Of a stretch of 64,000 nt of DNA, positions 42-52,589 are shown piece by piece. Positions within the stretch are counted from its first letter, which is position 1; each line of letters begins with the position of its first letter. The DNA lies in NCBI GenBank assembly GCA_012845835.1, contig JABAKD010000021.1, forward strand, positions 14,076,978 to 14,140,977. The letters run 5' to 3'. The position numbers and the translations under genes were made by a program. The stretch is from Undaria pinnatifida (taxonomy: Eukaryota > Sar > Phaeophyceae > Laminariales > Alariaceae). The notes below the pieces were generated by a model that made no database searches, was not told where the DNA came from, and saw only the letters and a list, made by a program, of their open reading frames with translations.

Positions 42-131
42 GGGCTTCAGTGGCTGCGGGCTTACCGACGCGGACCTCCCCGACCTCAGGGCGTGTTTCG
101 ACAACATTGGACGCAGCGGCATCACATCCCT
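42..131 (+). CDS. LRR gene, exon a (N-terminal LRR seen in the window)
   Basis: 90 bp, reading GFSGCGLTDADLP then CFDNIGRSGITSL. The acceptor is ATACAG and the donor is GTACGT. Entry is after one base of a codon and exit after two, as in the following LRR exons. It is a little longer than the 24-residue norm and has two cysteines, which suggests an edge repeat of the domain. An earlier exon must exist left of the window. Confidence 0.75.
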
Positions 132-3100
132 GTACGTTTCCCTGTTGTTTCAAGTCTGGCAATCATGTCGTCATCACTAAGACTTGACGATTCAGGGGAG
201 TCTCACGGCAACCGATACTGTTAGCCGAGCAATGCCAGCAAGCCTGTTCAAAAACCTTTTACCGAACACATGGTTAAACCAACGGGGGAAGGAGACGGTA
301 CGATAGGCTTGGGCGTCATTTTCTGAAGATGGCCACCTCAGAATCTCCTTACCAAACCTAGGAGGTCTGGATCAAAACTCAAACCAAACCATGGAAGACT
401 TTTACTAAAAGCATTCCGTTAAAAAAATGCTGGCTCAGTATTAAGTCAACGCACATCTCCTGCGACACACGGTGGCGTTGTCCATCTAAATATTTAGATA
501 CAACAAGATCGATCCATATATGTAGATTGAGATCCATTTCTTTGTTGATTTGCAGTCACTTCACACGGGGAAACTACGCACGTTTGGACGGATTCGCGAG
601 GAAATACACTACGCGGCGAGACTAAGTTTGTTCCTACGCAGCGACGCACTGTATGCAACATATATTTCCGGACGTTGAAAACGATGTCAGATAACAGAGT
701 GGCAGATAGGGAAAACACTGCCCACTTCTGTCACTGCACTTTTCCATCGTTTCGCCACATAAACGTCACTTTCAAACTAATTTCTTCCTTCTTTCTGTGA
801 TGTTATGATAACAGACACTTTGACGCCACCTTTACAACTATAAGCACATCGACAGAGCCTAAAGACGGGTCAGTGTCACACTCACGAGTGTCGTCACGAC
901 GGCATTGGTCCTAAACGTTTAACTCGTTAAAAAAACAGTCGACTGGGTTAGTTGCGGAAGAATATTCAATCCGCGGGTGAACTGCCTCTTACCTGGCTTT
1001 CCTGTTTTAGGATCTTAAGCATGATATATATAATGTTGCTCACTTCAGTAATGAGACAGTGGTTTATCGCGCCTTGTGTGTGGCCAGTCTCCACCGCCAA
1101 CGATTATGTGACCAGCGTCGCTGTCACAGACACAAATATCTAAAAAAGCAGTTGAAATATCTTAGTTGATGTCGAGGACGGGAAAAAAAACGGGTGTCAA
1201 CTCTTGGTACAGTTATGCAAAATAAATGTAGCTGTAAATAACTCCAAAAGTTCTCTGTTGTGACGCATTGTCAACGAAAATCAAAATCGTAACAGCAACA
1301 GGCCGTCGTGTCATTCCGTGGAGAATTCATAAGGAGTGTCTTCTTAAGCACAGATAACCTCTAGAATATGTTTCGGGACGAATAAAATGCGACCTGAGTA
1401 GGATAAAAGTGAGCCCTTATGCTGCATGGAGAAAGGACCGGCAACTGTTCCGAAACCATTAACCTGCGGCACGCGTCGTCCATATCCTTCCTTCCCGCGT
1501 GGGCAGTCCCTGCTTCAGCTGGACGCCGCAGCTATCGTCATGTTGGTATTCCGTGTTGCTTTCCGGAGCCTCAAGAGGTGATATCATAATTGCAAATATA
1601 CCATGCCACGAGAAAAGAAGACAAAAGTGCGTGAAATGTTTCCGGAGACCAGTGGACGACGGTGCGGCCAGACGACTTGTTTACATAGTCTTCGTTGGGC
1701 TAAGGACAAAACTGTGGCCTGGGATCAAGCGTCGGCCGCCCATCCATCAATCGTTTCCCTCGTGCTTACATGTCGCTGGTGTTTCTGCTCCCCGTTTTTT
1801 GCTGCCCCTCGCGCTAATCAAAACGCGATACATGCCGTTCTGCAGGAGCATGAATTACAACAGCTTTACAGCGATACCTGGGGACCTGTTCGAGTCCATG
1901 GGCGCTGTGACGACGCTGTAAGTGTCGCTTCTGGTCTCCCTCTGTAGACTAACATGAAAGACAGCGGCACTTCCATTTCAAAACTCGATGCGAACCGGGA
2001 GTAATTGTGGAAAGAAGGGTTACGTTGCACTCGATGTTCTGGTCGTATATTTGGACTAGGGTCCGACGCTTGCTTTACGTTGGCATCTCAAAGGTTGCTT
2101 GTATGGCATGATCAAATTCTGTGTTGTGCGCTCAGCGTCCCGTCGTAAACCTGTAATACGTAAGGGTAGTCTCTGAAGGTGCGGTAGTGCCGTTAACGTT
2201 GTACTCGTCTCCGGGTGCGAACGGTGACTGAATAACATCGTCCATTATGTACTACCAGGTACTTGGTAAGTACATTGGTTGATGGTGTATGCCCCCAACT
2301 ATTTGACGATAGTTCAGCTTGCCATCCAACTTTAGCCACGACCCTGACGTGTACAGATCAACAACATGTTAGTACCAGGCGAATAAATCGCAAGTCACAG
2401 GGTGCAAAGGAAGTGCAAGCGGTGGACTAGGTTAACTGCCAGCTTAGTGGAAACCGTGCATGCGTCTCGCAAAACCATGTTTCAATCCAAAAGTCTGGGG
2501 GAAACCTCAATGGTACGAACAAAGGTCGGTCGTGGTCAGATTTGTTTTTTTTCGTGAGAAGGCTGGAATAGTGTTATTGTTTTAGATCTGAGGCAAGCGT
2601 AGCCCGAGAACATTCAACATTTCCGCTGCGTGTACGTTTCCTGTCCTGATCAACAATGATGACAAACAAAATCGCCCCGGGAGATCCGCTCGGCTCACAA
2701 GCTGTCAGGGGCTGACGTTCACGTTTTATCCAGTCTGATAACAACCGCCGTAATCCTATTCCTACCCCGCTTCCCCATACGTCACTCTGCAGCAGCACTC
2801 CTGTTTATTTGCCCTGCGACATTCCGTCGGAAAAGACGTTGCTTTTTATAAGATGAATGCTTTGCCTAAGGAATCGTCCTCCGAGGGGGGGGGGTGCATT
2901 TTTCGGGGCCAGACAATTGTGACAGGTTGTTCTCTTCATGCGTGGCTCTATCGTTGAGCATAATTCTTCAACGAGTACTTTGTTTTCGCACTAGCGGAAA
3001 CAAAGCTTGGTCGGATTGCCAAAACGAAAATGTTGTCGAAGTTATGTTTCTGGTAAGACATTGAGTCACCTCATGTCAGGGGCTCAGAAGCTTGTGCCGC

Positions 3101-6100
3101 ACTCATACCGTGGCCTGAGTCTAGAGCAATAGGTTGAGCGGAGAGCGGGTGAACGCGAAACGCCCGTCACCATACCACACGCGAAGAAAAAAAATAAAAA
3201 AAAAAAGTGTGGACACTCTTCTCTTATACCCACGATAGCGACGACGTCGATTGTGTCAAATTGTACACGTTACAGACGTCAATGAACGGTGGCTGATCTC
3301 CTCCAAGGTAACACTGTACATGCTTTATGGTCTCGCTTACCTATGCCTCTCTGTCTGTTGTTCTGTTGACGCTGCAATCGCCACTGGCAGATCCATAAAC
3401 AACAACGAACTCTCGACAATCGACAACGGCGCCTTCCAGCCTTTCGCGTCGTCCCTGGAAATTTTGTGAGTAAAGGGTTTTGTAATGAAGGATATAACCG
3501 GGAGCCTACGTCTTGTCAATGTCGACGGAAAATCGGATTCAGCGTCGCTATACAACACGCTAAACATTACGATGCCGTGCACATGTATCGAACTACTCGA
3601 CTGAAACCAAACGTTGTATGTAGCTACAAGTGCATGCTGTTATATTTCTTCACCAGTGGAAAACCTGAACCACCGATGTTTTGGTCGACCTCAGCCACCG
3701 AAGTTGTGGGCGCTTAAACATGTATCGATTTCCGCGTTACCGTAGCCCCAAGGATACTTCGCCCGTCTGTCGACGGCGGTTGCGTCACTTGGGGTCGCGT
3801 TACAGAACGCCAGGACACCGTAAACGGTCGTAAAACCCCACTTCTGACAAGTACATATGTCGCTGGTGATCAAAAGGGTTACTACACATTCTACAACACA
3901 TATCTATGGGCTAACTGGTCCTTGCTTAGTGATTATCACACCAAGAGTGTCAGCTAAAAACGTTTTGCAGCCGTCAACGTTGAGTCTACCGGGCATAGCC
4001 GACATGCTGAAATTGCGTCAAGTCTAAAGCAAACCTCGTGTGTACCACGAACTGACACTAAGAATGGTTACGCAAAAATGGCCGATACCTCGCCTGCGCG
4101 ATGTCGACCGTTCATTCCAAGCGGTCTCCCGAGCATCAGGTAGTTATCAGCTTGTTCAACGATCTCGCAACGCAATGCACGAACGAAATACGCGGATATA
4201 ATTGACTGCGATCCATGCACATGCTTGCTCAGGGACCTGAACAACAATCTTCTGGAGTCTCTACAAGCCGGTCTTTTCGACAACATGGTATTCCTCGACA
4301 CCATGTGAGTGCTGTGCTTTATATAATGAAAATATATATATACACTTCAGCTGTGTGATCAAATATTTTGTCGAAGCTTATCTTCGCAAGCTGTGTGTGA
4401 TACTCCGATCGCGCGTATTACAGGTTGTGTGTCCTCATTAGTTCAATGGTAAAAATCGCCGACTCCCCTTGCAACTACAGTGGTGCCATAAGGTTCAACA
4501 AGGTGATGTTAGTCAGTCTGTGCGCGGAATCTTTGAACCCGTTTCTGAGGGGAACAAAATATGACAGCTGTGGGAGGAAATGCATCCGTTTATCAAGTGA
4601 CACATGTCATGGTTCGTAATGACACCTGCACCAAGACAGCAGGTCGCCAACTCTCCCTCGTCGTCAGCAGCAATAAAACAGATCGACTCATCCACACCGA
4701 CGCGATGTAGGTTCTGTCGTGCGACCTGTGAGGGCGACACCACCATCACACGCCAGAGGCGATCTCGCTGGTGGCGAGCCATGATTGCGCCAGGCAATAC
4801 TAGGACGCCTAAAATTCGTTGTTTCATGTCTTAATAGGCATCTAGAAATGGAAGTGAAGGCAAGAGAGTAGATACTTTCCCGCATCAGCGATCATATAAT
4901 GTGATGCATTACAGGTCTTCTTGTTGAGTAGCCTGTAACGGCGACTTCACCCTTACGATCTCGCCGCGACTCCACGGCGCCGCGCTTTGTCGGCCGCGTG
5001 GTACAACCATGGCGCACCTGAAAAAATCTGTACGACTACAATTCGTACGTGGCGTCCCAGTATCGTAGGAAAATATGTATCTAGACTGCGTTGATACAGT
5101 AGATATTTGTCACCAACAAGATCAGCTTGCGGTATTAACAGGGCACCGGAGTATAGTTGAAGGTTTAGTGTCCTAGCATTATATGGTAGACTAATCTGCA
5201 CACGTGTTTTGATGGTAGCTTGATTCAGTCATTCAGGAACCAATCCCATGTAGTTGGTGGCCCATAGAGTAGATATCCGCTACAACCGAGGCGGGCTCGC
5301 AGCATGCATGATGCAACATAGGTTCTTTCACCCTAGCCACACTAGTCAATTCGCTAATCACGCGACCAAAGTGTGTTTTCAAGGGGAAGGCCTGCGATAG
5401 CAACCCGTCAGACTGCATATATATTATCAAGCAATATATATATTCAACTGTGAGATCAATTTATTTGTCGAAACTCATCTTTGCAAGCTGTGTGTGATAC
5501 TCCGATCGCGCGTATTACGGTTTGTGTGTCTTCATTAAGGATATAATTCGGCGACTCCCCTTGGAACGACAATGTAGCTATCAGGGTCAACAGGGTGATG
5601 TAAGGCAATCTGTGCGCGGAAACTAAGAAACCCGTTTCTGAGGGGGACAAAATCTGACAGCTGTGGAAGGAAATACATCAGTTTATCAAGTGAATCCTGT
5701 AAAGACGGCATATATATAGTGCAACTAGAATCTCTACTGATGCTGTGGGTGACAACACAGACTGTTATATAGAAGACACATACGCGTGTACAGCTCCCGA
5801 CAAACTCACAGCAGCAGCTTGGAGCTAGGATGTTGTTGGTGTTGATATCATCATGAACGCCATTGATTCAGCACAAGCTCCAACCATCACATAATATATC
5901 ATGTGAGGTAGTCTTGAAGCAGAAATAATAAACAGGTCGAACTTCATGTTTAGGCCATTATCGCCAGGCGCGCCAGGAGGGGCTCCGAATATTACGTACT
6001 CCACAATATACTATATTGGTATGATCCTCATTTATAGTTCACAGCTCCAGCCATACGTAACTACGGCATCACCTTAACAGTCATATCATACGAGTCTACA

Positions 6101-9100
6101 TGACGTACACTGCGATAGATTGCATCACGTACCTGGCAGTAGACTATCGTATTAACGATGTTATACGAGTATATACGTGAGTACAAAAAAAATATGCATT
6201 CTCCCAAAATTGACCGACATTTGTCAGGCGAGAGCCCTTTCACCCCTCGACCGACGGCAACTTTCAATAATTCACCTTGACTGACGGATATATACTAAAT
6301 ATTTGTGTGATACAATCGATTTGACAACCCTTAGGACCGCTGGGCATTCTGCTTTGCTGGCCATCACGTTGTCAAGTGCTGCGCTGGCAGGGCACCAAGA
6401 CCGCAAATGAACCACTTTTTCAAGCAACTGGAGTCCCTAACCTCGCACACCGACGTATACCACACGCACAGCTTCGAACGTGCGGCCAGATGCCCTCGTT
6501 TATCGATTTCCGGATCGTGGGTATGACCTCCCAATTGTCAAATGCCTGGCTTGGCAAGAAGAAAACACTCATGTGACTAGCTTGGCTGGCTACTCCAGGT
6601 ACTATCTTATGTTTCTCCACATAATCGGCCAGAGCCCCAGCTCGCTTGCGCTCAGCGTCTACTCGCGAGCATGAGACGAACTGCACCCGAGACTGGTCCC
6701 GGGGGGCTGTTTTAACATTTTCTACAATTCCCCGAGGTGACCGCGATTCATGACACAGACATGCTTCCTTCTCTACATCAAACACAACGAACGTCGACGT
6801 TGATAAGCGTTCGCGGGTTATTGTTCGGGTCGGAAAAGGTGGTCCAGTAGGGGACTGTCGGAACGGGAACGGGAATCCCGACTCTATTTCTCTCTTGACC
6901 GCGACTTCTCGACCCTGCCTCAACGTCAGCCTCTCTCGCACCGTCTACCGCTCCGGTTTATGGCATCTTGCGACCGTCCCGACTTGTTTCCCGTCACGCC
7001 GTAATGTGTATATCGACGTATCTCGTCGCCCCGTCCGCCTAGTTGTTCCCATCCCATCCCGACTTTCTCACACAATTTCTTCCATGCCGCAACTCACGTA
7101 AGTGGCAGATGTTCCATCCTTCTGAACATGGGTTGCGTCTTTTCCCCGTCATACGACTTTGGATGCAACTGGACTATTCCAACGTGGATTATTCAACCTA
7201 GGTATCATGTAGAGGAGATAGTCTGTTCAATTCATCGGTCCGTTTATTTCATGTATTTTGTAAAGCTTTGCCGCACATCCTCTTGTGATTGTGTGGTGAA
7301 CTTCAGCTTTCAGTCGATTAATATACGTATGCTGAAACTTTTTTGAACAAGTAAATCATACAGGATATATATTATCCGAAAATAATACACTCCAGCTGTG
7401 AGGTCGAATATTTTATCGAAACTCATCTTTGCAATCTGTGTGTGATACTCCGATCACGCGTATGACGGGTTGTGTGTTCTCATCAAGAATACAGGTCGGC
7501 GACTCCCCTTACAACTACTGTGTAGCCATCAGGGCCAACAGGGTTATATTGATCAGTCTGTGCGCGGAAACTATAAACCCAGTTTCTGAGGGGGACAAAA
7601 TCTGACAGGTGTGGAAGGAAATGTATCCGTTTATCGAGTGAATCCTGTAAGTCGGGTAACCGTTGAGGGGAGGGCGGAATTTTGAAGGACGTAGAGCCTG
7701 GTTTCGATCAAAAGCGAGCGGGGTTGGAAGGGGGGGGGGAGGCAGGGGGGCGGACGGGCGGGCAATTTGAGCGTGGAATCGATACATCTTTCAAGGGGAT
7801 GAATCTGACAGTTTTGGAAATAAAATAAGTATATGCATCAGTTTATCTTAGACGGGGGGGGGTTGGGGAGGGGGTGGGACAGGTGGCAGCTCAATCTGTG
7901 CGTGGAACTTATACATTTTTTCAAGGAGATATATGTGACGGTTTTGAAAATAATGCATCAGTTTATCATGTACATGATGGGGTAAGTCGTACAATCAGTG
8001 AATAGAGGGCGGAGTGTTCGAGGGGGTGGGATGGGGTGGGGTAGGGGAAGGGAAGGTTAGGGTGGTGGGGAAGAAGGGGGCGTTCGGGACGGGGGGGATG
8101 GGGAGGAAGGGGGGGGGGGGGGGGGGCAGCGGCATGGATGGCTCTAGAAAGATAATGAGATGATATCCAGTGTATTGTATTACCTTTTTTTTATTAAAGA
8201 TGAAAAAAGCGGCGAAGGCTCGTTTGAGCAATTGACAAATAGCACTTGGTGAATATTTCGACTTCTACACCCTTTGTTGTTCTCTTCAACCAGCGTTCTC
8301 CGTTGTGTCCCAACCATTCCGGACCGCATCTCACGGATATATTTTGATCACGTCCCCGACCAATTTCTCGACTGTGTTGCCGATCGTTTTCCCGACTATC
8401 TATGTACCCGACCGTTCTTGAAATATTCCCGGCCGATTTGCCAACAATTTTCAAGACATATTTTTCGGAACATGCACCAGACAGGTTTCCCGACCTGTTG
8501 CCAATTCATTCCATAGTCCCGTCCGGACAACAAATAGGCATCTCACGTCCCGTCCCGTCAGGAAAATCGTGTTCCGCCTCCCCGTTCCGCTCCCATCCCA
8601 CTGTAATCAAACGGGATCATTTTCCTATGCCGTTGCTTTGGAAGACCAAAAACGAGTTCAGTCTGCGGCGGGCTAACCGGCTAACGTCCCGCACCGACCG
8701 GTGCCGTCGTTACCGCACGTATATTTGGTTCTTGTCTTTATTTGTTATTTTGTTGCAAGCGTTATGAGGACAAAGTTACTATTTTATATTTTTCGTTGTC
8801 CTGAGCATGAAACCTTTACGAAGACGATATGTCGTTAACCCTGCGCCGTTCCAACAAGGCCAGACAAAATATCCACGTGAAGACCCAGGCTACGGTATGG
8901 GGGACCCTTTTTGGGCTTTTTATTTCAGTGGCTAGGGGTCACTCGCGCGAGTAACCCCTTTCTATTTGCGATCCTACGTCTTTTTTACGTTATATATTGA
9001 CGAAATCAATCCGCCATTCAAACGTAATTTAAGTTGTTCCAAAAGAATTGCCTACACCATTTTCAACCGTGAGGTACAGAGTCACTTGTGCGAGTGGCTC

Positions 9101-12100
9101 AAAAACACTAGTGGAAACGGGGGTACCCCCCGTACCGCAGCCTTGGTCTGAACGGTTACGTCCAGCGACGCCCGGATAACATGACGCCTGTTATATAGTT
9201 TGCCGGTTAGTCGACAGAGCTCAAACAACTGCCGTCGGTCAGTGTGGCAAATGATATTATATCAAAACTCGTGTGTCGAACGTTTCCGTTAGAAGCCATA
9301 AACCAAGCACGGACGAGGTCTTGTGTTGGACGATCTTTCTTTCAGACTGGTTGTACGAAAGGATGCCCCCTCATATGTCTGTGTCTCCTCGTGCACTTGG
9401 AGAACCTTTGAGTGTGTTGTCCTAATTCGGCTGTGATGCATGCATACCATTGGGTCCGTGAGCCACACCTTTTCACGGACTGTTTTTACCGCGTCTGTGG
9501 TAATGACGGTTGTTAACTTGAACGCGAACATCATACCCATCCTGACCCGACACAATATCAATATTAGCCGTTCCCAAACATCTTGTTTTCCCGTCGCTGA
9601 ATGCCCAGCTGCTGGCGATCGATGAACCGTGCCCAAGACGTAAAGCGGCTCATATATTCTCTCCATCAAAACGCATGTGTATATATATCAGTGCGTACAG
9701 GAGGCCGAGGAAAACCACAGGAGCACCGTGGAAACCTGAAATGCCAAGTAACTAGACTTACACGCGGACCGTCGAGCGACGTAACCGCAACTATCGCTCT
9801 GTCGCATTTTTTGTTTTTCCAACGTGGGACATGGACATCTGTTACAACGTGAGTGTTGTGAAACGGAAGGCCATCCGGCTATGTGGCGTGCTCAATTCAA
9901 AACATTGCACGCAAAACTTGTTTCATGCACACCGAGAGAAAGGTATATTTCATCGTCAGACAAGTCAGCCAATGACCTCCCCTATCCGTTACAGTGTATT
10001 GTCGCAACCCCCTTGAACACAACATCGAACTACAGCCGTCGAAATATTTTTTCAAGGTTTAACGCCCGTCCCGTTGTTTCTTAACAGCATTTTCTTGAGC
10101 TAGCTCGAGGCCAGCACGTGATAGAAACTCCAATCATCATTTGTCTCCCCCCCAATCGCCGCCCAATCTTGGCCAAATACGTATGGCAACAACCGCACTG
10201 TTGCTTAAATACAGAACCCCAGCAACGCGCAAAAACCCAGAAACAGGAAATATATAGGACCAAGATATTCTGGACTACCCAAAAGAAGAGAAAATGGAGT
10301 TAAAACAGCCTCGTCGTCAGCATTTCTACCGTGCCAACGAGGAAGCTCAGTACCCGCATCATTCTTACGATTTCATGCGCTTGCGTCCAAAAATGAGTTG
10401 CATCTTGAGAAGCCGGCGGCCAGGAGCTTGTTGTGCCCTGCTAAGGCTAAAACGGCCGGGCCTCCGCTTCTGATACCCCTGCAACACTCCCGCCCTCTTT
10501 CCCGCTTAGGGTTCCTCTCCGAGAGGTATCGGTTAAGCGAAGGGACTACTCCCGTACTCGCCTCGGTGGCAGACTCCTAACTGTTTATCAAAAGCGGTAG
10601 TCGGCCTCCCCCCATGTGCGTTGCTTCCTAATACCGATAAATCGAGACACAGGTTCAATCTTAACAAAGTTCGCACTGCATGTAACTCAACGTAGGCGGT
10701 TGGCACGTGTGATGCCTGATATATGTATCAGACCAACCATTTGAGGGGCCATCTACTGTATAACACGGCGAAAACGTCAGGTAAGCAAGATATCACTCGG
10801 TGACCTGGTCTGTCAGGTTTCCTTTTTTTGGCAAGCAGGCTGGGTCTTCTCTCCCGATCACGGATAAAGGAATCACCACCCAACGAGGAACATGTGTAGA
10901 CATTCTGTTCACGTCTCAGCAGGAGCTTTTCTGCTTGCCCTCTGTGGACCGACCGCTCCTGCACCAGCCCTTTAGTCTTACGTGGGGCATTCGATCGTCA
11001 CCCACCCAATTGTAGAAAACACTGCTCGCACGAATGTAACTTGGACTTCCGGCGTACCGACCCCACTTGACATTGAGCTATCACGAACGACACCACATCA
11101 ATGGTACCTGGTAAACAAATGTTGGCGCGTTTTCATGTTTGCCCTCCCATCGTCTCGTTGTCGGTTACGTGCGTCAGGTACCTTAACAACAATCAGCTGG
11201 CATCTCTTCCATCCGACATCTTCGATGATCTGGCAGAGATCACCTCGCTGTGAGTATCACCAGACGACATCCTCAAAAGTTGGCACATGCGATCTTCGCG
11301 GCTAATGTACCATTTCCGAAGTGAAGAATGGTCAGCACATTACAATAGACCGGGCGAACCACCGGGTCGCCTCTTGAGTCATTCAGACTGAACGGTCGAT
11401 GATTTCAGTAGTAATCGAACAGGAAGGGCAAATACCGGCAAAACCGGTGCCACGTCGACTATTGCTAGAGGCCGCAGCTGGTTTCACGGTAAAAATGGGG
11501 TTTTGGATGAATGAGGTGACACAGGTGTATGCATACCGGAACAGGCGGATCCCTCGCCAAAACGAAACCCTCACCATAGCATTGGTCGATCTGCATTACA
11601 ACTGCGTGAGGGAGACGGTTACATAAATCCATGCCCAATGGGCGCGTAAACCCTGCGGGACATGTCGGATTCGCGTTTTTCGTGTACGAGGCACTTGTAG
11701 TGGATGTCTGTCATCCATTACGGGAGAACACGATGCGGGTTAAGGCGGTTCTGATCACTTTGGTTTATACCTTCCGCACCCTCCACCATTTTGTGCCTTG
11801 CACATGCTCTCTTTGGAGTACGTACGGACCTTGATGGAAACGCCTGCTCTACTGCGAACCCTTTGAATTGCCGGCCTCCTGTACTAGACAGACGACACGC
11901 GGTGAACCCTTGCAGCGTTATGTACGGATGTTTCCTGGTATAGACGTTGTTTAGATATAGCGCTGTGTACCGTACACATCGTCGGTTGTCCCCATCTTGG
12001 CATAAATGCGTTGCCCTTCAAAATTATAATGTCGGGGAAAAGTGCACAGTACGCAGAGCGTAAAAATTTCGAGCTAACATTGAACTCGTCTCTAGCTCAA

Positions 12101-15100
12101 TGGGAGTCTTGAAAATAAAGTCATTTAAAATTCTTCCTATAGCGAGGGCCACGCCTGCACCGTATTTTTTCGCGCTGCTAGTTTAACCTTTTTTCCCTCC
12201 TGTTCAACTCGACCCGACAGGTTTCTCAGCGACAATTCCCTGACCACGTTACCTGAAGGCATATTCGATGGCGTAGGGTCGAACGGAGGCTTGCTGACGT
12301 TGTGAGTGCCTCTTGATCGGGTCGTAGATGGATCTTCCTGGCTACAGTACAAGCAGGCAAAAACAACGAAGAACGTGGCTACGTGCCTTTACGCACTCTC
12401 CCAAGTTGTCTCTGTTTCCCCGTCGTTTTTGCGCATGACCCAGACACTAAATCGGTAAAAGCACGACCTAGGTCAGCAACATGCCGTTTGTCCACATGAG
12501 ATGCCAATCACAAACAAGACGACTTCTGTTGCCAACGGCGAGCACGGCCGGGCCTACTGTTCGTCTTCGTTCGTCAATCACAACATATAATCGTGGTAAC
12601 ATCCAAACCTTATGTCGAACGTATCTCCACCTCTGTCGTTACGCAAACGCGCTTTCTCCGCGTTCAGGAATCTGTCTGGAAACTCGGGCCTGCAATGCAT
12701 CCCCGATGCGTAAGTGATGTGGATGGGGCGCGAATGATGATTGTTTTGGTGCTCGCAGGCGTGTGCGTGATATTTTGTATTTTGCTTGCGGCCTCCGGTT
12801 TGGCAGAGATTGCTAGCAATCGTAGAGTGGTATATACATGGGAGGGATAGCCGATTATGACGGAGTTGTTTCACTATCGCTTTTGATTACTTGCTAGAGA
12901 ACACGTATTTATTCAGCTATTATGGATTTCAGACTGATTGAGGCGGTAATCATTCACGGTTTATCCCAGAGATGGCGCGTGCACGCCTTCTGGCTGTCTG
13001 CCCTGAAGTCAAATATGCCCTGGCAACTTCCACCCGTTTCGTGCCGTCATTTGAACTCAGGACCTTCTTGAACACTTTTCTCTCTGTCATCGCTACACTG
13101 GCCGACCCTAATGGCGCGTGCGGTGAGAACCGGCGGGGCATAGGAAACGTGTCGACCTCAATCCTCAGGCTTCGGCGACGAAAAACGTCTACCGGTGTCA
13201 CCGACGGCATGTCGTTACCAACAAACGCTGACAGAGGTGTTGCGTGAAAATGAACGGGGCATCTTTGTTTCATCTTTCGGATTCCATACGTCGAAAGAGA
13301 GCCAACAACGTACCGTATACTGCATTAAGATAATTCATAAGTTGGGTGGTTGTGTCACGTCGGTTGATGTCACCAAGTTTGCTGACGGTTTGATCTTTGT
13401 AGATGACGTACTCGATGATAGCCCTCAATCTTACCGAATATATCTCTGCCCGTCATACCCTCTGTTGTCTGCCGCACGTTTACACTGATGAACAGAATGT
13501 ACGCCAGCCACTGCGGTTTTGTGTGCGGATGGTCAAACGTGTGAGGCTGGAGCAACAGGTTACACCTGCATCGGTAAGGCTTTCCGGGATTACTATCATT
13601 TTAACATCTCGCTACTGACATGGGAGTGTATCGACTGGCGTCGTCGGTTCTCCTGTACTAGTGGAAGAGTTGACGTACAATGCAACGCAAAATTAAGCCG
13701 TAAGTCACAAAAGGAAAGAAGGAAGGAAAAACAGAAACGTTGTTTTTTTGTTTATCATGACCCGATCCGCGTGTCGGGTTGGAAGGCATTTCAAATCGCG
13801 GGACGGGTCGGGTCATTTTTATAAATCTCAAGGGCCGGGTTGGGTCGGGTCGTACGGTTTCGAAATCTTGCGAGGCGGGTCGGGTCGGGTCAGAAGGTAA
13901 AAACCTAAAGCGGGTCGGGTGAGGTCATGACCCGCGAGATACGGGTGGCGCGCGGGTCAAGGCACTAAGACCCGCGCGTCGTTTTCGGCTAACCCGAGGG
14001 TTAAACCTGCGGATCTTGCCCCTTTCAAAATTTTCGGACAAAGGCGTCAGCCGTGCGGGCTCCCCGGGGAACCGTAAATCCTTCAAAACGAACCGCTTTC
14101 TTCCTCTCTTTATGCCGATGCTCTGATCATTTGTCATCACAGCGTGTAGAACAATCAACAGGCAGTACCGCGAACTATTCGCATCAAGGCATACATTGTG
14201 ATGGGAATTCCGTGCCGGCCGAAGTCGTAACACTAATATTAAAACGGCCGTACCAGTACAATATGTTACCAAACGTAAAAACGCAAGGACAGTCGTCTTA
14301 AAAAAGCAGCAGTAGCCCCGGGGGCAGCAAGCACCGGGAGCAGACCCAGGTTTTCTCGCGGATTGTATTCCCTGCGGACAGATCCACCGTCCCAGTTGTG
14401 AACTTGCTGACGGAGGCGGCACTGCTAAGCTGCCTGCAGGGGCTGGAGATTGCATAGATATAAGATGAAAATAGTAGTAGTAAAGCTAGCTCGATAAATA
14501 TCATACCAGTTCGAAATGTCACCAAACGCGGAAAAAACAAGAGGAGTCGTCAAGGAGGCAACAGCAGCCACAGCAAATCAGCAGCAGAATTCTGGCAGCA
14601 GCAAGCACCAGCAACAGACCACGAATGCCCGCAGATCGCAGCCCCTGCTGACAGATTCACCACCCTAGTTGTTGGCTTTTTGCGAGAGGCTGCACAGCTA
14701 GGTTGCGTGCCGAGGCTGGAGACTGCTTAAATGACGATCTCGCTCGTCAGGTCGCTCGTCCGGTCGACACAGTGATATACCGCTAGGGTTGTGGACGGTT
14801 TTCTCATGCGCGCGGGCTGCGGTTTCTTGCTCAATATTCTCGCGCACACCACAACACGCTGCCGCGACTAGTACCGGAACGAAGAAAGAGAAATATAACA
14901 CGACATCCTGGGGAAAGTAAAAGGGCCGACGACCATCCAACCCTCCGACGTATACATGCTTTAACCCGTGACTTTTCGGCCTCGACCCGTGACAAATGTA
15001 ACAAGTCAAGTTAACCTGACCCCCCGCACGAAACCCGCGTCTCGCGCATGATCCAAGTTGTGGCGAGTCGAGTCGGGGCAAGAGGATTTCTAGATCTCGC

Positions 15101-17112
15101 GGGTCAGATCGGGTCAGGTCAGGACATGTTCGAAACCTCGCAAGTCGTGTCGGGTGGGTTCAAGACGTCTTGAACTCGGGTCAGGTCGGGTGGGGTGAAG
15201 ACGTCTTGAAAATCTCACTGATAGGGTCGGGTTGACCGGGTGGGTCGGGTCGGACGCGACCGGACCTGCGAGATATGTCTCCAATCGTCAAAAGACAATA
15301 CGCTTTATATTTTGTCGTCAACGCAGACACGATGTGTCACATGCATGCTGTGTGTCTTCCCTTACTTTGAACGGTGTTCTTGTACAGGGCGGAATGGGAA
15401 TGTTTCAACTAATTGAATCGGCGTATTTGAGTCGTTTCCCGTTGCCCTGAATGAATTGAATTGCTCACGTGTGAGGTTTCTGTGTATCGTCCCCGCATCA
15501 TTGGAGGCAGAATGCGCTCCCGGAACACCGCCAAATAAGGCAGTCGCGATGCTCTTGGCGCTACATCCGTTCGGGGAACGGGGTTAATGTGTCTAAAGCG
15601 GCGCAACGTGGCCAGACATTAGCACTACCAACGCTCGACCCTCCCTGTGGACATCGTTTGTAATGGGCAGATAACTAGTGCCACACCTACCCTGGCGACG
15701 ACAAAATTGTCTCCAGTAGCAACACCAAGTTGGTTTCACGGGGCGCTCGGGAACAATCCAATATGTATGACGAATGATTCTACGCAAGGGGTACGAGCGC
15801 GCGCAATTTATGAGGCGCCTTACTTGTGGACCCCCATACCCCACCCAACACCAGGTATCAAGAAGGTATGGGATTGCAACCCCATGACACAGCCTATGGC
15901 TGACGGAAAAAAACGCAAAAACGCATATGGTGTTGGAACCACAATAGGAATTCCCCCCATCTCAATAAGTCCGGTATTTCCTAAAATACGTTGGCCCAAA
16001 CAATTATACTCACATCGTAGAACACGCCACTCTGAGTCTTTGGGACGACGTATCGATGTCAACAAAGCGTGCGGGTCAACCTCCTGCGTGCAGTTAAACT
16101 GGTTTTCAAGCTGCGCTAATTCCATGGTTTTACTTGTACGTCGTTCGCGTCATCCTGATGCCCTGTCGGCAATCCAAACTATGCAGCGTGCGACCCAGGG
16201 ACCAGCTTGTGCGGTGACCCACACATGCAAGGCCTCCGTGGCCAACAGATTGATTGGTCCGGCATAGACAACAGCTGGTACTGCATGGTCTCTGATGACA
16301 CCGACAGCATCAACGTCAACGTCCGGGTCAACGCTCCTCTACCCGATGATTTCCCTGACCGCCAGCTCATCACAGGCCTTAGCGTCATGTCACAGGGTCA
16401 TTCGCTGGTTATCGAAGTGACGAACCCGTACGATGTCAACACCGACGGCTGCCCCTCCGACATGTCCACCTGCCTTTCCAACGGCGGACTCCGTGCTATG
16501 GTCGACGGCGAGGAGGTAAACGATCTGCTCCGGTTCTCCAGAGACGAATACGTGACGGACAGCATTGCTGTGTCGGCGTCCAACCTACCGGTTGAGTGTC
16601 GGCAGTTCGGAGGAGACAAGATATGGGCTCGGATGTACGACGAGATGCTGCAGGGCCAGCGCGAATTAGTCGTGGAGGAAAGCTTCGAGGACTGGATCCT
16701 ACGTTTCGACCACATGGCCGCCCCCGATTGGTGCGCGCAGTACGTCGCGCAGAACCACCTTGCCGATGTGCAGTCCATCTACTCCGTGTTCAAGATTGCG
16801 ACTTCTTCTGTTACGGTGCGCCTTAACGTCGGCATCAACTCCCAAGGCAATGGGGAACTGGACTGGGATGGTCGTGTCCTCCCCGACCTGGAGTTCTGGC
16901 AGATGGACGTAGGTCTAGACGGTCTGTCTCTGGAGAGCGAGTCGCTCACTGGTATTCTGGGTGAGACGGCCCGCCCGGTGTTGGACAAGGACGGACGCAA
17001 GGTTATGCAAGGGTATGGAGCGATCCGTGGAACTGTCGAGGACTACCGCGTGTCAAGCGCCCTCAGCACTGATTTTGCTCTTAAAACCAAGAAAGAGGAC
17101 AGCTCCACCTAA
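42..17112 (+). CDS. LRR - EGF-like - vWD-like protein gene, 5' end outside the window
   Basis: Multi-exon host gene. Supported exons are 42-131, 1846-1917, 3391-3465, 4233-4304, 11178-11249, 12221-12301, 12668-12709, 13496-13573 and 16187-17112, with a possible extra exon at 13169-13236. Every LRR exon starts with one base and ends with two bases of a split codon, so any of them can be skipped or added without breaking the frame. Each ends at a good donor (GTACGT, GTAAGT or GTGAGT). The LRR exons read like NNxLxxLPxxxFDxL, followed by a cap with one cysteine, a cysteine-rich exon and a last exon with CGDPHMQGL. LRR proteins of this build are usually extracellular or surface recognition proteins; that role is inferred. 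The signal peptide, if any, lies to the left. No transmembrane segment is visible after the last domain, so the product may be secreted. The gene is interrupted by many repeats, all inside introns. Confidence 0.85.
132..1845 (+). other. Intron of the LRR gene, 1.7 kb
   Basis: AT-rich sequence bounded by GTACGT and TTCTGCAG. I see no further LRR-like exon and no repeat copy recognisable from elsewhere in the window. Confidence 0.6.
1846..1917 (+). CDS. LRR gene, exon b (one LRR)
   Basis: 72 bp, exactly 24 codons: SMNYNSFTAIPGDLFESMG then AVTTL. The acceptor TTCTGCAG and donor GTAAGT are both strong. N, L/F, IP and LF fall at the usual LRR positions. The split codon is CT|A, leucine. Confidence 0.88.
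1918..3390 (+). other. Intron of the LRR gene, 1.5 kb
   Basis: Non-coding between exons b and c. A run of ten G (2885-2894) and an A-rich stretch (3186-3206) are the only low-complexity tracts seen. Confidence 0.6.
3391..3465 (+). CDS. LRR gene, exon c (one LRR)
   Basis: 75 bp, 25 codons: SINNNELSTIDNGAFQPFAS then SLEIL. The acceptor is CTGGCAG and the donor GTGAGT. NNNELSTIDNGAF is a standard LRR core. Same split-codon phase as its neighbours. Confidence 0.88.
3466..4232 (+). other. Intron of the LRR gene, 0.77 kb
   Basis: Bounded by GTGAGT and GCTCAG. Nothing else recognised in it. Confidence 0.6.
4233..4304 (+). CDS. LRR gene, exon d (one LRR)
   Basis: 72 bp, 24 codons: DLNNNLLESLQAGLFDNM then VFLDTM. 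The acceptor is CTTGCTCAG and the donor GTGAGT. LNNNLLESL and LFDNM match the LRR core. The next LRR exon is 6.9 kb away, the longest intron of the gene. Confidence 0.88.
4329..4625 (+). repeat. R repeat, head part only (copy R1)
   Basis: Carries the head of the R family: ACACTTCAGCTGTGTGATC, then GTGTGTGATACTCCGATCGC, then CCGACTCCCCTTGCAACTA, then CTGTGCGCGGAA and GACAGCTGTGGGAGGAAAT. It stops after TTTATCAAGTGA. It differs from other copies at about 4438-4455, where TTAGTTCAATGGTAAAAAT replaces the usual AAGGATATAGG. Confidence 0.8.
5433..5705 (+). repeat. R repeat, head part only (copy R2)
   Basis: Starts near ATATTCAACTGTGAGATCAA, contains GTGTGTGATACTCCGATCGC and GTCTTCATTAAGGATATA, and ends at TTTATCAAGTGAATCCTGTA. 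Same extent as R1, so both may be copies of a short form of the family. Confidence 0.8.
6780..7100. repeat. Degenerate CCCGAC/GTCGGG-rich stretch
   Basis: Loose repetition of CCCGAC, CCGTC and their complements (for example GGAACGGGAACGGGAA) without a clear period. A similar stretch lies at 8290-8620, on the other side of R copy R3. They may be two parts of one older element split by R3; this is a guess. Confidence 0.35.
7372..8195 (+). repeat. R repeat, long form (copy R3)
   Basis: Head (ACACTCCAGCTGTGAGGTCG), G-rich spacer, then two further blocks with GTGCGTGGAA and ATCTGACAG, then a G-rich tail with an 18-base run of G at 8109-8126 and the module GGCATGGATGGCTCTAGAAA. Lies inside the large LRR-gene intron. 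Confidence 0.8.
8290..8620. repeat. Degenerate TTTCCCGACC-type stretch
   Basis: Many near-copies of CCCGACC, CCCGTC and TTCCCG over 330 bp. Similar in kind to 6780-7100. No coding sense seen. Confidence 0.35.
8881..9149. mobile_element. Complete short TIR element (T1a), MITE-like
   Basis: The left end GACCCAGGCTACGGTATGGG and the inverse of the right end, GACCAAGGCTGCGGTACGGG, are near-identical terminal inverted repeats. TGAA lies directly outside both ends (8878-8881 and 9149-9152), a likely 4-bp target duplication. Inside the ends are subterminal copies of a dyad: CACTCGCGCGAGTA near 8941 and CACTTGTGCGAGTG near 9082. About 267 bp with no coding capacity, so non-autonomous. Ends of the same family occur at 36276, 41970, 43224 and 47762. 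Confidence 0.75.
11178..11249 (+). CDS. LRR gene, exon e (one LRR)
   Basis: 72 bp, 24 codons: YLNNNQLASLPSDIFDDL then AEITSL. The acceptor is GCGTCAG and the donor GTGAGT. A textbook LRR core with LNNNQLASLP and IFDDL. In phase with exons d and f. Confidence 0.9.
11250..12220 (+). other. Intron of the LRR gene, 0.97 kb
   Basis: Bounded by GTGAGT and a pyrimidine-rich acceptor ending in CCCGACAG. Nothing else recognised. Confidence 0.6.
12221..12301 (+). CDS. LRR gene, exon f (one LRR)
   Basis: 81 bp, 27 codons: FLSDNSLTTLPEGIFDGVG then SNGGLLTL. Three codons longer than the norm because of SNG near the end, yet still a multiple of three. The acceptor is CGACAG and the donor GTGAGT. Confidence 0.9.
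12302..12667 (+). other. Intron of the LRR gene, 0.37 kb
   Basis: The shortest intron of the gene. No repeat seen. Confidence 0.6.
12668..12709 (+). CDS. LRR gene, exon g (C-terminal LRR cap)
   Basis: 42 bp, 14 codons: NLSGNSGLQCIPDA, with the last codon split. The acceptor is GCGTTCAG and the donor GTAAGT. NPxLQC-like capping sequences with one cysteine commonly end LRR domains. It ends in the same phase as the LRR exons. Confidence 0.85.
13169..13236 (+). CDS. Possible linker exon of the LRR gene
   Basis: Exon g ends after two bases of a codon, while the EGF-like exon needs one base from before it, so at least one exon should lie between. This 68-bp stretch has the acceptor ATCCTCAG and takes exactly one base. 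It is open as LRRRKTSTGVTDGMSLPTN and on, and leaves one base at AGAG|GTGTTG. The donor is weak and there is no domain to back it. Another exon in 12710-13495 could do the same job. Confidence 0.3.
13496..13573 (+). CDS. LRR gene, cysteine-rich EGF-like exon
   Basis: Reads CTPATAVLCADGQTCEAG then ATGYTCI. The acceptor is TGAACAG (a second AG at 13506-13507 would keep the frame) and the donor GTAAGG. It leaves one base, which joins to CG at 16187 to make an alanine codon followed by CDPGTSLCGDPHM. The spacing of cysteines (C-x7-C-x5-C-x8-C) is EGF-like, but the set is short for a full EGF module. Confidence 0.7.
13745..14000. repeat. GGGTCGGGTC array, left block
   Basis: Many copies of CGGGT on the + strand up to about 13925, then ATGACCCG and further ACCCG motifs, so the block turns over and could fold into a hairpin. 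Subterminal motif arrays of this sort are known from DNA transposons such as hAT and CACTA elements. No clean ends or target duplication were found. Confidence 0.5.
14220..14735. repeat. Diverged tandem duplication, period about 255 bp
   Basis: Two units share TACCAGTNC...ATGTYACCAAACG, AGTCGTC, GCAGCAGTAGCC or ACAGCAGCC, CAGCAAGCACC and GGCTGGAGA in the same order (around 14262 and 14517). CAG-type triplets are frequent in both. No product recognised on either strand. Confidence 0.5.
14960..15270. repeat. CGGGT array, right block
   Basis: Starts with ACCCG motifs (14965-15060) and then changes to GGGTCGGGT on the + strand (15085-15260). It is the mirror order of the left block at 13745-14000. 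Together the two blocks may bound one 1.5-kb insertion in the intron. Confidence 0.45.
16187..17112 (+). CDS. LRR gene, last exon: von Willebrand factor D-like domain
   Basis: 926 bp ending in TAA, about 308 residues. It begins ACDPGTSLCGDPHMQGLRGQ and continues with DWSGIDNSWYCMVSDD. CGDPH followed by a WYC and a VSD strand is the signature of vWD-like domains, including the plant root-cap type. The end (GILGETARPVLDKDG, GAIRGTVEDYRV, STDFA) fits the conserved GxLGQT end of that family. Six to eight cysteines fit an extracellular fold. The acceptor TATGCAG gives the correct phase from the EGF-like exon. Its codon use is richer in C and G than the flanking introns. There is no transmembrane segment. 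No clear poly(A) signal was picked out downstream. Confidence 0.85.
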
Positions 17113-27534: not shown

Positions 27535-29330
27535 AAAATAAACTCCACCTGTGAGATTTGTCGGAACTCATCTTTGCAAGCTGTGCGTGATACTCCGATC
27601 GCGCGTATTACGGCTTATGTGTCCTCATTTGGGATATAGGTCGGCGACTCCCCTTGCAACTACAGTTCAGCTATGAGGGTCAACAGTGTGATGTTAGTCA
27701 GTCTATGCGCGGAAACTGTAAAACTCGCGCGTATTACGGGTTGTGTGTCCTCATTTGGGATATAGGTCGGCGACTCCCCTTGCATCTACAGTGTAGCTAT
27801 CAGGGTCAACAGTGTGATGTTAGTCCGTCTGTGAGCGGAAACTGTAAAAACTGTTTCTGACGGGGACAGAATCTGACAACTGTAGAAGGAAAGTCATCCG
27901 TTTATCAAGTGAATCCCATAAGTCGACTAACCGGTGAAGTGGGGGTGGAGTTTTGAAGTACGTGGGGGCCTGGTTATTATCAATAGGGCGCGGGGTTGGG
28001 GGGGGGGGGGAGTGGCGGAGGGGGGGGGGCGGGCGGGACAGCTCAATTTGTGCGTCGAAACTTTGAATCCTTCAAGGGGAAGTGTCTGGACGGTTTTAGG
28101 AAGAAAAAGTATATATAGAGATTATACATACATAGGTTTTGTTGATCCGACGGTGGTCACCACTATGGAACCTGACCTCTAACGGGTTCCCCGTGTCGAA
28201 GTGGAGAGGGCTGTACCGGAGGTCTGGTGCTTGTTGCGGAGCAGAAGTCGAAGCGGAGAGTGCGTCGCGAAGCTGAAGTAGAAGCGGAGAGGGCGTCGCG
28301 GTTCCGAGGTCCTTTGATGATCGTCTTCACAGCAGACGCACGCTGAAATCGTCCTTTCTTATATGTAGCAAAGAGATTCTAAAGCTAGAGTAACGGTTGG
28401 ATTATGCCCTCTCGTCATGCGGCGGGATCATCTTTCGGTTGCTGGCCTTCCGGGGACGGGTCAACGCCGTCTATGACTGTTAACACCACTCGTGACCCGG
28501 GATCGTTTATTGCCTGACCGGTGACGTGTCCTCTCGCGCATGCGTGCACGAGATCTACGATAGGTATCTACGATCCTGTCTACCACGTTAAGGCCGAATA
28601 AATGTAGGGGCTTGCTATACGAGTGATGCTAGGTCTAGACGAGACGGGTGGTGAAGAAGGGGGGGGCGTCAGAGGTGGGGGCGGATGAATTGGAGCAATG
28701 GCATGGATGGCTTGAAATATGATCAGACGATATCAACTGCGTGGAAGTGTTTATAACTTTGGCAGATTTGTTTAAGGTGGGGCGTTTGAACGAAAGGGAG
28801 AGGGCAAAAGAGATGAGATGAGGGGGCTGGGGGATGTCGACAGGTTTAAGTAGATGTAGGGGTTTGCATTCAACGTTATGCTAGGTGTTGGCGATGGTGC
28901 GGGTGGTGGGGAAACAGGGGGCGTTTGGGGCGGGGGGGGCGGGATTTGAGCTACTTTACTAATGTTTAGCAATAAAACGAGGTGGTATCAATTGCGTGGA
29001 AGTGTTTATTACTCTGAACAAAAGGGAACGGGGGAAAAAAATAAAAAGGGGGTGGGGGGGTGGAGGTGGGGGAGCGCAAATGAAATGGAGCCACGGCATG
29101 AATGGCTAGAAATATGACGAGGTCAAGTATTATCTGGCTGGTAATGTGTACTTTTCTGGCAGATTTCAATTTTTGGTGAGGCGTTTGAACAAGAGGGATC
29201 GGAGGGGGGGGCGGGGACGGGCGGGACTATTCAACATGTGCGCGGATACCAAAAGTCCTTGAAAGGGACATATCTGACGGTTGTAGCAAGAATACATCAC
29301 TTTGTATCACCTACCTGGTATTGATTGTTT
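27535..29330 (+). repeat. R repeat, long form with an insert (copy R5)
   Basis: Head at 27541, with an internal 126-bp tandem duplication (27599-27724 and 27725-27850), G-rich spacer, second block, then the LTR-like insert 28166-28587. R resumes at ATGTAGGGGCTTGCTATACG (28602). At least three tail modules with GGCATGGATGGCT, ATCAACTGCGTGGAAGTGTT and GTGGGGCGTTTGAACG follow at about 28690, 28970 and 29090. Runs of G separate the modules. Confidence 0.75.
28166..28587. repeat. LTR-like repeat, copy 2
   Basis: 422 bp, the counterpart of 25356-25747. R sequence flanks it on both sides, so it was inserted into an existing R copy. Starts TGGAACCTGACCTCTAACGG and ends GTCTACCACG. Confidence 0.5.
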
Positions 29331-49544: not shown

Positions 49545-51735
49545 CACGCAAGCGCCACTCGTGCGAGTGACATTTCTACCACCAAAACTGCTTAGACAAA
49601 CTCGCCGAGGACTATGCAAGTGCCACTCGTGCGAGTCACTATTCTAATAGGTCTTTTCACAAAAACTCGTTTGACCATGCAAATGCCACTCGTGCGAGTG
49701 ACTCCTGTAAATCAGTTCTCCCTTCAAAACTGTTTAGACAAACTCGCTTTAGACAATGTAAACGCCACTCGTGCGAGTGACTGTTCTTAAGTATTTTTTC
49801 ACCGTAACCGCATCGAAAACCTTAATTTAAATATTTAAATGCCGCTCGTATTAGAGACTATTTTAAATAAGTGTTTCCACTAAAACATATTGACAAACTT
49901 GTTTTCGACGACTATGCAAATGCCACTCGTTCGTGTGAGTATTCTAATCGATCTTTTCACTAAAACTCGTTTGATGATGAATGCAAACGCCACAGGTGCG
50001 AGTTGCTCGTCTACATCAGTTTTTCCACGAAAACTGTTTTGTCAAACTCGCCGAGGACTATGCAAATGCCGCTCGTGTGAGTGACTCTTTTAAATAAGTT
50101 TTTCCACTAAAACTGTATTGACAAACTTGTTGCCGATGACTATGCAAATGCCACTCGTTCATGTGAGTATTCAAATCGCTCTTTTCACTAGAACTCGTTA
50201 GATGATGCACACGCCACAGGTGCGAGTTGCTCTTCTACATCAGTTTTTCCGCCAAAACTGTTATTATATTGACAAACTCGCCGAGGACTATGCAAATGCC
50301 GCTCGTGTGAGTGACTCCTTTAAAAAAAGGTATTTCCACTAAAACTGTATCGACAAACTTGTTTATTGAGGACTATGCAAATGCGACTTGTGCGAGTGAG
50401 TATTCAAATCAGTCTTTTCACTAAGCCTCGTTTGACGATGCAAACGCCACTCGTGCGAGTGACTCTTCTGAATCAGTTTTTCCACCAGAACTGTTTGAAC
50501 AAACACCCTATCTACCATGGAAACACCACTCGTGCGAGTAACTTTCTAAATTAGTTTATTTAACGTGACGGCGCTTCGAAAAACTCACTTTGGACAATGC
50601 AAAATGACACTCGTGCGAGTGGTTCTTCTAAAACAATGTTTCCGACAAAACTCGTTTGACCATGCAAATGCCACTCGTGCGAGTGACTCCTATAAATCAG
50701 TTCTTCCACTAAGCTGTGTTGCTACAAACTCGCTTTGGACAATGCAAATGTCACTCGTGCGAGTGACTTTTCTTAATCAGCTTTTCACCGCAACAGAATC
50801 GAAAAACTCAGTTTGAATGTGGATATGCCAACTCTTTATATAAAAAGTGTTTCCACTAAAACTGTATTGTCAAACTTGTTTTTGACCATGCAGACGCCAC
50901 TCGTGCGAGTGATTATTGAAAATGAGTGTTTCCCACTCAAAACCTTTTTCGACATACTCGGTTTTAACAAGGCAAATACGCGAACTGAGAGTGACTTTTC
51001 TAAATCAGTTTCTCTACCGTAGCTGAGTTCGAAAAACTCGCTTTTGACCATGCAAACGTGAGTGGCTCTTCTGACTCGGTTTTTCTAACGAAATTCGTTT
51101 GACCATGCGAATGCCACTCGTGCGAGTGACTCTTCTTACTCAGTTTTTTTACGAAAACTCGCTTTGGACGATGCAAACGCCACTCGTGCCAGCGACTCTT
51201 TTGAGACGTCTTTCCACCATCAAGCTGTTTTGAATAACTCGCTTTGGACCATGCCAACGCCACTCGTGCGAGTGGCTTGCAGAAATGAGCTCACCCACAG
51301 CAACTGCTTCGAAAACTCGCTTTAAACTATGCAAACGCCACTCGTGCGAGTGATTTTGTAGAAATCAGCTTCTCCACAGCAACTGCTTCCAAATCTCGCT
51401 TTGAACCATGCAAACGTCACTCGTGCGAGTGACTCTTCTATATCATCAGTTTTTCCACCAACACACTGTTTCGAAAAACCCTTTGGACGATGCAAGGTGC
51501 CACTCGTGCGAGTGTTTTTTTTTAATCAGCTTTTTCTATCAAAACTCGTTTGACGATGCAAACGCCACGCGTGGGAGTGACTCTTAAAATCAGCGGTTCG
51601 ACCAAAACTCGTTTGACGATGCGTATGCCACTCGTGCGAGTGACGCATCAAATTCAGCTTTATCAAAATTTTGGTAAAAATCACTTTCGACCATGCAAAT
51701 TCCACTCGTTCTAGTGATTCTTCTAAATGTGTGCT
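49545..51735. repeat. Satellite array, unit 61-88 bp, about 29 units
   Basis: Each unit holds a near-copy of GCCACTCGTGCGAGTGACTC and the spacer AACTCGTTTGACCATGCAAA. About 14 of 29 units have the exact dyad CACTCGTGCGAGTG (6-base arms around TG). Distances between dyads are not uniform: short (61-67) and long (77-88) steps alternate, mostly as one short and two long, giving a period near 226-232 bp between about 49920 and 50750. The units are diverged, so the array is not recent. No open frame of meaning. Confidence 0.85.
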
Positions 51736-51907: not shown

Positions 51908-52589
51908 TCAGTCACCCACCTTGGTCATCAGTAGAGTTCCTGTCCCTCTGACGTGTATTGGGTCCGAGTCGAAGGCAACGTGCTCTTCGTGCGTAGGTTC
52001 CATCAACATGAAGATGAGGTCTTCGCCGAGCTTGTCGCCCAGGATTCTCTCGAGCTTTCGACTCTCCACGACATGTTGGTGACGTTTACCGCTGCGTGGG
52101 TCTTGGTCACCCCACACCCTCACTGTCCGACTTGTTTTTTCCGAGGCACGCTCCGAAGTAGTGATGTTCGAGGTGAACGTTCTGCCGGGTAACGTCTCTA
52201 TCATTGTCTACTATCTTCACCCCGCTGCCCGCCACCCACCCAAAATAGAATTTGCACTTGAACTGTTCACCGCAGTTGTCCGTGAAGATCGTGGCACGGG
52301 TCATGGTTCCCCCGCCTATCTCCCGCAGCAACGCGGGAATATTATCGCGCAACAGCTTGAACAGCACATACCGAACCCAAGTGCTATCTTGAGACATGTC
52401 ATCGCTCTGAACCTGGAACGAGTACGCCCAAACACACTCTTCCCGCCTTGCGAAGATGGGGCAGGGGAAAATAGTTGTTTCCCCGTGATTCCAGTGCTGA
52501 GATTGCACTTCGTCTTGCTCGCGAAGAGACAATCGCTCCAGGAAGTCGGCGACCAGGATGACGTGACCTGGCTCAAGCGTCATTAACAT
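51908..52589 (-). pseudogene. Transposase-like protein remnant
   Basis: Minus strand, best part 52589-52107. Reads HVILVADFLERLSL, EVQSQHWNHGETTIFPCPIF, then QSDDMSQDSTWVRYVLFKLL, TRATIFTDNCGEQFKCKFYF and EHHYFGACLGKNKSDSEG. This order (QSQHW, SDDxxxD, FTDxxxxQFKC, FGxxHGKxxxDxxG) matches a multicopy protein type found in many algae and animals that is probably a DDE or RNase-H-like transposase. The frame changes after SEGVG: the continuation GDQDPRSGKRHQHVVESRK and EHVAFDSDPIHV is in another frame down to 51908. A plain DNA transposon relic is the best reading; the family name is uncertain. Confidence 0.45.

Follow-up and report, generated by a model that had tools for sequence, protein, structure and literature searches.

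Introduction

Zambounis is said to have described, in 2012, brown-algal ROCO genes with shuffled leucine-rich repeat (LRR) exons. The present work concerns a gene of the brown alga Undaria pinnatifida that also carries one LRR per exon, and which extends from just upstream into the first 17,112 positions of a 64,000-nucleotide stretch of DNA, hereafter the window (GenBank assembly GCA_012845835.1, contig JABAKD010000021.1, positions 14,076,978 to 14,140,977). Judged from its sequence, this gene is proposed to be a germ-line member of a large brown-algal, probably secreted LRR family, for which an inherited recognition repertoire facing microbes is the likeliest role and, in our estimation, a reasonably probable one. 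A layout already known from ROCO genes, that of 72-bp phase-2 LRR exons, thus recurs in a non-ROCO and probably secreted family, framed by adaptor exons and ending in a C-terminal domain with a CGDPHM motif.

For the ROCO genes of brown algae, Teng 2024 (PMC11378527) describes 72-bp phase-2 LRR exons, exon shuffling, diversifying selection and splice variants, with positive selection reported at LRR sites 14, 16, 18 and 19, on the concave face. The same article mentions 15 non-ROCO sequences of Saccharina japonica with such exons, most of them consisting of LRR motifs only. Shared between the ROCO genes and the family described here are one LRR per exon, the length of 72 bp, phase 2 and a variable exon number, although no exon duplication was seen in the window gene's own group of loci. 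On the other hand, no ROC-COR follows the LRRs in the window gene (there is no such Pfam row, and the 558-residue frame ends with the CGDPHM exon), and its signal-peptide-like, adaptor and Cys-rich exons and its CGDPHM C-terminal domain are different from ROCO. Gonadotrophin receptors differ from this family in receptor body and copy number. They share with it LRR exons of similar size with one LRR each, and introns that are all in phase 2 (PMC11378527). Tetrahymena LRR genes, as described in PMC6564038, have tandem exon–intron units in phase 2, exon numbers that vary between paralogues and a proposed origin by unequal crossing-over, but their exons are of 90 bp, their repeats of 30 residues and their genes counted in thousands, in another lineage.

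No description of a family combining LRRs with the CGDPHM domain was found among the literature entries listed in the searches made, which does not establish absence from print. LRR receptor kinases of unknown ligand are mentioned in PMC8307928; to these, a large LRR family that is probably secreted and has a hypervariable binding face would add a candidate outside the cell, and it would also be an example of cassette-like LRR evolution in brown algae beyond the ROCO genes.

Gene architecture and intron phase

The searched genome comprises 511,146,479 bases in 68 contigs, in which the window corresponds to G000:C28:14076978-14140977 (contigs are hereafter designated C1, C22 and so on). A large EsV-1-7 family, a hallmark of brown algae, is present in this genome (150 scored matches among 2,167 first-look candidates) and gave no match in 14 control genomes. 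The exon structure, established from a comparison of the window gene to three of its close paralogues, is that of a 12-exon gene with a frame of 558 residues, and all four genes read have 558-residue frames with a terminal stop only. As read from the sequence, the gene starts with a signal-peptide-like exon (window positions -1343 to -1280, upstream of the window at G000:C28:14075634-14075697; 64 bp, ending in phase 1) and an adaptor exon, N2 (-497 to -455, also upstream; 43 bp, phase 1 in and 2 out), which are followed, on the forward strand of the window, by a block of exons in phase 2-2, each opening with one base of a split codon and closing with two bases of another. This block consists of the N-terminal LRR cap exon E1 (42-131; 90 bp), five LRR exons, namely E2 (1846-1917; 72 bp), E3 (3391-3465; 75 bp), E4 (4233-4304; 72 bp), E5 (11178-11249; 72 bp; the type of which the second group of loci, described below, holds tandem multiples) and E6 (12221-12301; 81 bp), and CAP (12668-12709; 42 bp), with the last LRR strand and a GLQCIP cap. 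A second adaptor, X (13061-13122; 62 bp, phase 2 in and 1 out), a small Cys-rich exon in phase 1-1 (13496-13573; 78 bp) and the large last exon (16187-17112; 926 bp including the stop at 17110-17112), encoding a 307-residue C-terminal domain with the CGDPHM motif, complete the gene, all three on the forward strand.

The lengths and splice positions of E1 to E6 and CAP are identical in all three close paralogues compared, confirming six LRR exons and a cap exon, each in phase 2-2, as first proposed in a sequence-only reading of the window. The exons listed there were correct, the last one being amended to 16187-17112, and three had been missed, the signal-peptide-like exon, N2 and X.

The common phase-2 layout is real and goes beyond chance. 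Eight consecutive introns, from that between N2 and E1 to that between CAP and X, are all in phase 2, which would be expected with a chance of about 5e-4 under independent and equal phases, a null model that is weak because LRR exons are related by descent. Introns beyond the LRR block are in phase 1, and N2 (1 to 2) and X (2 to 1) bound the phase-2 run; the statement that all introns share one phase is therefore true of E1 to CAP and fails elsewhere. Since N2 and X switch phase, only the exons from E1 to CAP can be skipped singly in frame, which restricts to these the earlier proposal that any exon can be left out.

The joints between the 2-2 exons fall within the codon of a structural Leu. 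A comparison of 35 exons of the E5 type and of a second type, F, found in the same arrays, revealed G (32 exons) or A (three) as the first base and CT, TT or GT as the last two, and with these bases the codon formed at this hydrophobic position of the repeat is, in each of the 35 × 35 possible joins, one for Leu (1050 joins) or for Val (175). As 2-2 cassettes with scar-free Leu/Val joints, LRR exons can therefore be duplicated or deleted together with an intron, with neither frame nor repeat harmed.

X is a conserved island, whose acceptor and donor are kept in four of four aligned genes and which is also present in the array gene C22:22800674 (E22). A direct splice of CAP to the Cys-rich exon was considered for the window gene and rejected on phase: CAP cannot join the Cys-rich exon directly because that frame meets a stop, and the 62-bp exon X solves the difficulty. 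The paralogue A13560 lacks this particular stop codon. In two of the four genes, the paralogues A13560 and C13771, the donor of E3 reads GC instead of GT (gcgagt).

Domains of the encoded protein

The identity of the LRRs may be taken as certain from the match of Pfam LRR_8 to the spliced protein (6.3e-22). Its Pfam rows were confined to four LRR families and, weakly, DUF7630 (E 0.8). The best three matches among PDB sequences were to LRRs of the extracellular type, LRRTM, variable lymphocyte receptor A (VLR-A, second best, 5.6e-40) and LRRC15, with the intracellular SHOC-2 and designed LRRs ranking lower. VLRs of lampreys are capped extracellular LRR proteins with a variable concave face, and are assembled somatically from flanking cassettes. 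Unlike the VLRs, which have an incomplete germ-line gene, the family described here has complete frames in the assembly (four of four C28 genes and one array gene).

A hydrophobic N-terminal exon was present in all five genes read, and was judged by eye to be signal-peptide-like. The Cys-rich exon, with four Cys in about 26 residues (counted by eye), had been described as EGF-like; no Pfam EGF row was obtained for the spliced protein at E≤10, HMMER filters dropping most rows above about 0.1, and this description thus finds no support in Pfam.

Naming the C-terminal domain is less straightforward. Neither a vWD row in Pfam nor a vWD match among PDB sequences was found, and in Pfam three of 16 alignment members had a weak PsaS row only (best E 0.14). 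A fold search with the model of the domain gave no match at E≤0.001 among 469, and among the 50 of these that were listed a single one exceeded a probability of 0.5, Cypridina luciferase (0.93, E 0.24, TMq 0.29), a protein with vWD domains. The C-terminal domain begins with CGDPHM, as vWD domains do. The earlier label vWD-like can accordingly be kept as a suggestion based on one weak fold match, and the domain is best named the CGDPHM domain, possibly related to vWD.

Two groups of loci in the genome

The last exon has at least 132 matches in the genome, of which 41, the window's own included, are nearly full length and at least 82% identical; 39 of these 41 close copies, located on C28, C22, C30 and C26, are free of stops. 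The more distant copies include genes on C23, and several CGDPHM domains are clustered at 6.2-6.4 Mb of this contig. Broken family loci, with stops or reduced to pieces, were found at C28:14406361, 9175250, 12979932 and 13787209 and at C22:21758851.

The window's group comprises 26 loci, located on C28 and in the part of C30 below 3 Mb; a few of these loci are broken. The group was searched with patterns for E2, E3, E5 and E6 and with BLAST for E1, a procedure that can miss diverged exons; reversed-pattern controls gave no matches, and 12 matches lacking a family last exon within 30 kb were dropped. At least one exon was found in 24 of the 26 loci, none of which contained a duplicate, and wherever at least two exon types were detected, which was the case at 21 loci, the exon order was the same. 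There is therefore no sign of reordering in the window's group. At G000:C28 13.64-13.73 Mb, matches to E1, E2, E3 and E6 lie more than 30 kb from any listed family last exon, and may represent gene fragments or a reservoir of LRR exons.

The second group contains 18 loci, 15 on C22, one on C26 and two on C30 near 8 Mb, and at every one of them between three and nine LRR exons, each of the E5 type or of type F and commonly about 990 bp from the next, were detected in tandem. The orders vary, for example EEEEEFEEF, EEEEEFEF, EEEFEF and EEFEEEEEF, E denoting the E5 type, and the four arrays that were read in letters hold nine, eight, six and nine exons. The spacing from one E exon to the next is commonly 979-1061 bp, which corresponds to exon–intron units of about 1 kb. 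These counts are based on 100 listed pattern rows with 0-2 mismatches, 40 BLAST rows and 17 further rows, set against 47 last-exon loci, of which three on C56 gave no match. Five matches without a family last exon within 30 kb were dropped, three of them (C1, C18 and C22:12.28 Mb) having two mismatches; at three mismatches the E5 pattern is at chance level (309 + 316 matches against 262 + 272 in the reversed control). Across the genome, 64 of 65 exact matches to the E5-type core have a family last exon no more than 30 kb downstream, and no exchange with unrelated genes was seen among them.

The sequence-only reading had seen in the window gene a layout ready for exon shuffling, and had proposed a comparison of exon sets between related genes. 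Made here within one genome, that comparison bears out gain and loss, with different numbers and orders of units throughout the second group, while the window's own group proved collinear and unduplicated. Its observation was partly confirmed and its interpretation, partly supported, is half right.

Turnover of exons in the tandem arrays

Where they align, the exon–intron units of E22 share 75-84% identity. A tree of 35 units separates types E and F fully, and some units of different genes group by position: E22_5 and G22_5, in each case the last E before the first F, group with support of 95/88, while G22_7 groups with E22_7 and H22_5, each of the three being the E that follows the first F (100/98). 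The grouping of H22_3 with G22_4 (97/84) is what the loss of a unit could produce. Pairs from within one gene also occur, E22_1 with E22_2 (95/89) and I30_2 with I30_3 (100/99), and the units of I30 are clustered by gene (two label changes against 7.4 when shuffled). G22 and H22 were read over limited stretches only; I30 has nine exons by letters and eight by the scan, the extra exon standing outside both the unit tree and the codon counts given below, and the donor-less I30_1 being included in both. Taken together, the tree fits arrays that were inherited and have since gained and lost units, for which unequal crossing-over would be the simplest cause, and the arrays provide a clean natural experiment on unit gain and loss in repeat proteins.

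It might be argued that the common phase is a mere relic of the origin of LRR genes by exon duplication, unused today in the window gene. The order and number that look constant in the 21 informative loci of its group are in keeping with such a relic, and phase-2 LRR exons do recur in gonadotrophin receptors and ROCO genes (PMC11378527) and in Tetrahymena LRR genes (PMC6564038). The second group, however, is built on the same gene plan and has 3-9 units in different orders, and the within-gene pairs of the unit tree likewise speak against disuse, so that we consider this explanation unlikely.

It seems that an individual exon can decay while the gene survives. In E22 the E2-like exon is of 73 bp and would break the frame, its skipping yielding a frame of 677 residues, and exon 1 of I30 has lost its GT donor. 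Toleration of such unusable-looking exons, together with arrays of 3-9 exons with scar-free joints, would also be expected if the arrayed 2-2 exons were joined in many different ways, through splicing or through recombination in somatic cells, one gene giving rise to many LRR horseshoes. The ROCO LRR exons of Ectocarpus, also of 72 bp and in phase 2, have multiple splice variants (PMC11378527), but according to that article no somatically recombinant ROCO locus is on record, and the five LRR exons of the window gene stand in the order common to its group; a somatic repertoire of this kind appears quite improbable. More specifically, combinatorial use of the 72-bp cassettes by a single individual, whether it came about by splicing or by somatic recombination, would amount to an anticipatory, VLR-like extracellular repertoire, to which we would give slightly less credence still.

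Variability and selection at the concave face

Codon variability was assessed in 25 E-type exons of the arrays (300 pairs) and compared with that of aligned intron triplets taken as pseudo-codons, with bootstrapping over units. At codons 3, 4 and 23 the amino acid differs in 0.87, 0.85 and 0.86 of the pairs, and at codon 1 the fraction is 0.69, the corresponding value for intron triplets being 0.44, and codons 3, 4 and 23 lie above the intron level in the bootstrap; structural codons 2, 5, 7, 10, 11, 15 and 18 differ in 0.08 of the pairs at most. The concave strand has the form xLxLxxN, in which codons 23, 1, 3 and 4 lie around the two Leu and the Asn; these codons are spaced like sites 14, 16, 18 and 19 of the ROCO LRRs (PMC11378527), a correspondence of register that is presumed.

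Among four C28 genes, the ratio of nonsynonymous to synonymous substitution rates (dN/dS) is 0.72-1.07 for E2 to E6, the last exon having values of 0.15-0.25. When 24 concave codons are considered, dN is higher than dS in five of six gene pairs, whereas no pair shows this for the remaining LRR codons, the counts being small.

Proposed role

These observations are consistent with a model in which the LRR horseshoe would bind outside ligands through its concave face, which would diversify through positively selected point mutations and, in the second group, probably also by unequal crossing-over of the units of about 1 kb, the conserved C-terminal domain possibly serving to anchor the protein or to signal in the cell wall. 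The earlier proposal of a secreted recognition protein gains in this respect from the hypervariability of the expected ligand face and from the signal-peptide-like exon.

Several points weigh against an inherited recognition repertoire. Expression, secretion and a ligand are what we infer from the DNA, the signal peptide being one recognized by eye. The two groups of loci were defined by contig position and exon content and not by a gene tree, and in the unit tree strong support is limited to 10 of 32 inner branches, the units of E22 and H22 not being clustered by gene (eight and six label changes against shuffled means of 8.2 and 5.7). Codon 1 is borderline (bootstrap interval 0.00 to 0.43), and codon 8, which lies off the concave strand, is likewise above the intron level. 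For the whole LRR block dN/dS is about 1 at most, and over the concave codons, where sites are few, dN does not exceed dS in the pair A13560-C13771. Other small exons are fast too, with dN/dS of 0.35-1.28 for CAP, X and the Cys-rich exon together and of 0.39-0.86, where defined, for the signal-peptide-like exon and N2, and speed as such is therefore not confined to the LRRs. In two C23 relatives with the CGDPHM domain (L047 and L048; C23:6275100-6289500) the exon profile detected no LRR exon, so that this domain is not always paired with LRRs, and its model has a mean predicted local distance difference test (pLDDT) score of 52, with no confident fold.

The same signature of selection might result from sexual conflict or species recognition, were the family to serve in self or gamete recognition, or in cell-wall adhesion, instead of facing microbes. 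LRR proteins with fast-evolving binding faces do occur in such roles, although 41 close copies and multi-unit arrays exceed the usual gamete-recognition systems. LRR-containing proteins, ROCOs included, are reported to be expressed in gametes of Ectocarpus, for which the authors suggest immunity (PMC3879662). On balance such a role seems rather unlikely, and an inherited repertoire facing microbes is retained as the preferred reading.

Additional features of the window

In the 6.9-kb intron between E4 and E5 (4305-11177), no dead copies of E5 were found with the exon profile (default filters, E≤10), whose matches in the whole window were E2 to E6 only. The same intron contains, as judged by eye, a recurrent element of about 250 bp (about 4330-4620, 5420-5710 and 7380-7660), possibly a small mobile element, and part of its text is shared by a tandem pair at 27599-27849. 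Further downstream, a run of open reading frames on the forward strand (55707-60675) resembles by eye a Ty1/copia-type retrotransposon, and a 179-residue open reading frame on the minus strand (52107-52646) appears transposase-like; neither the three frames scanned in the former nor the latter gave a Pfam match at E≤0.01. The stretches 49837-50707 and 51152-51514 are tandem arrays, in which the unit length ranges from 79 to 457 bp.

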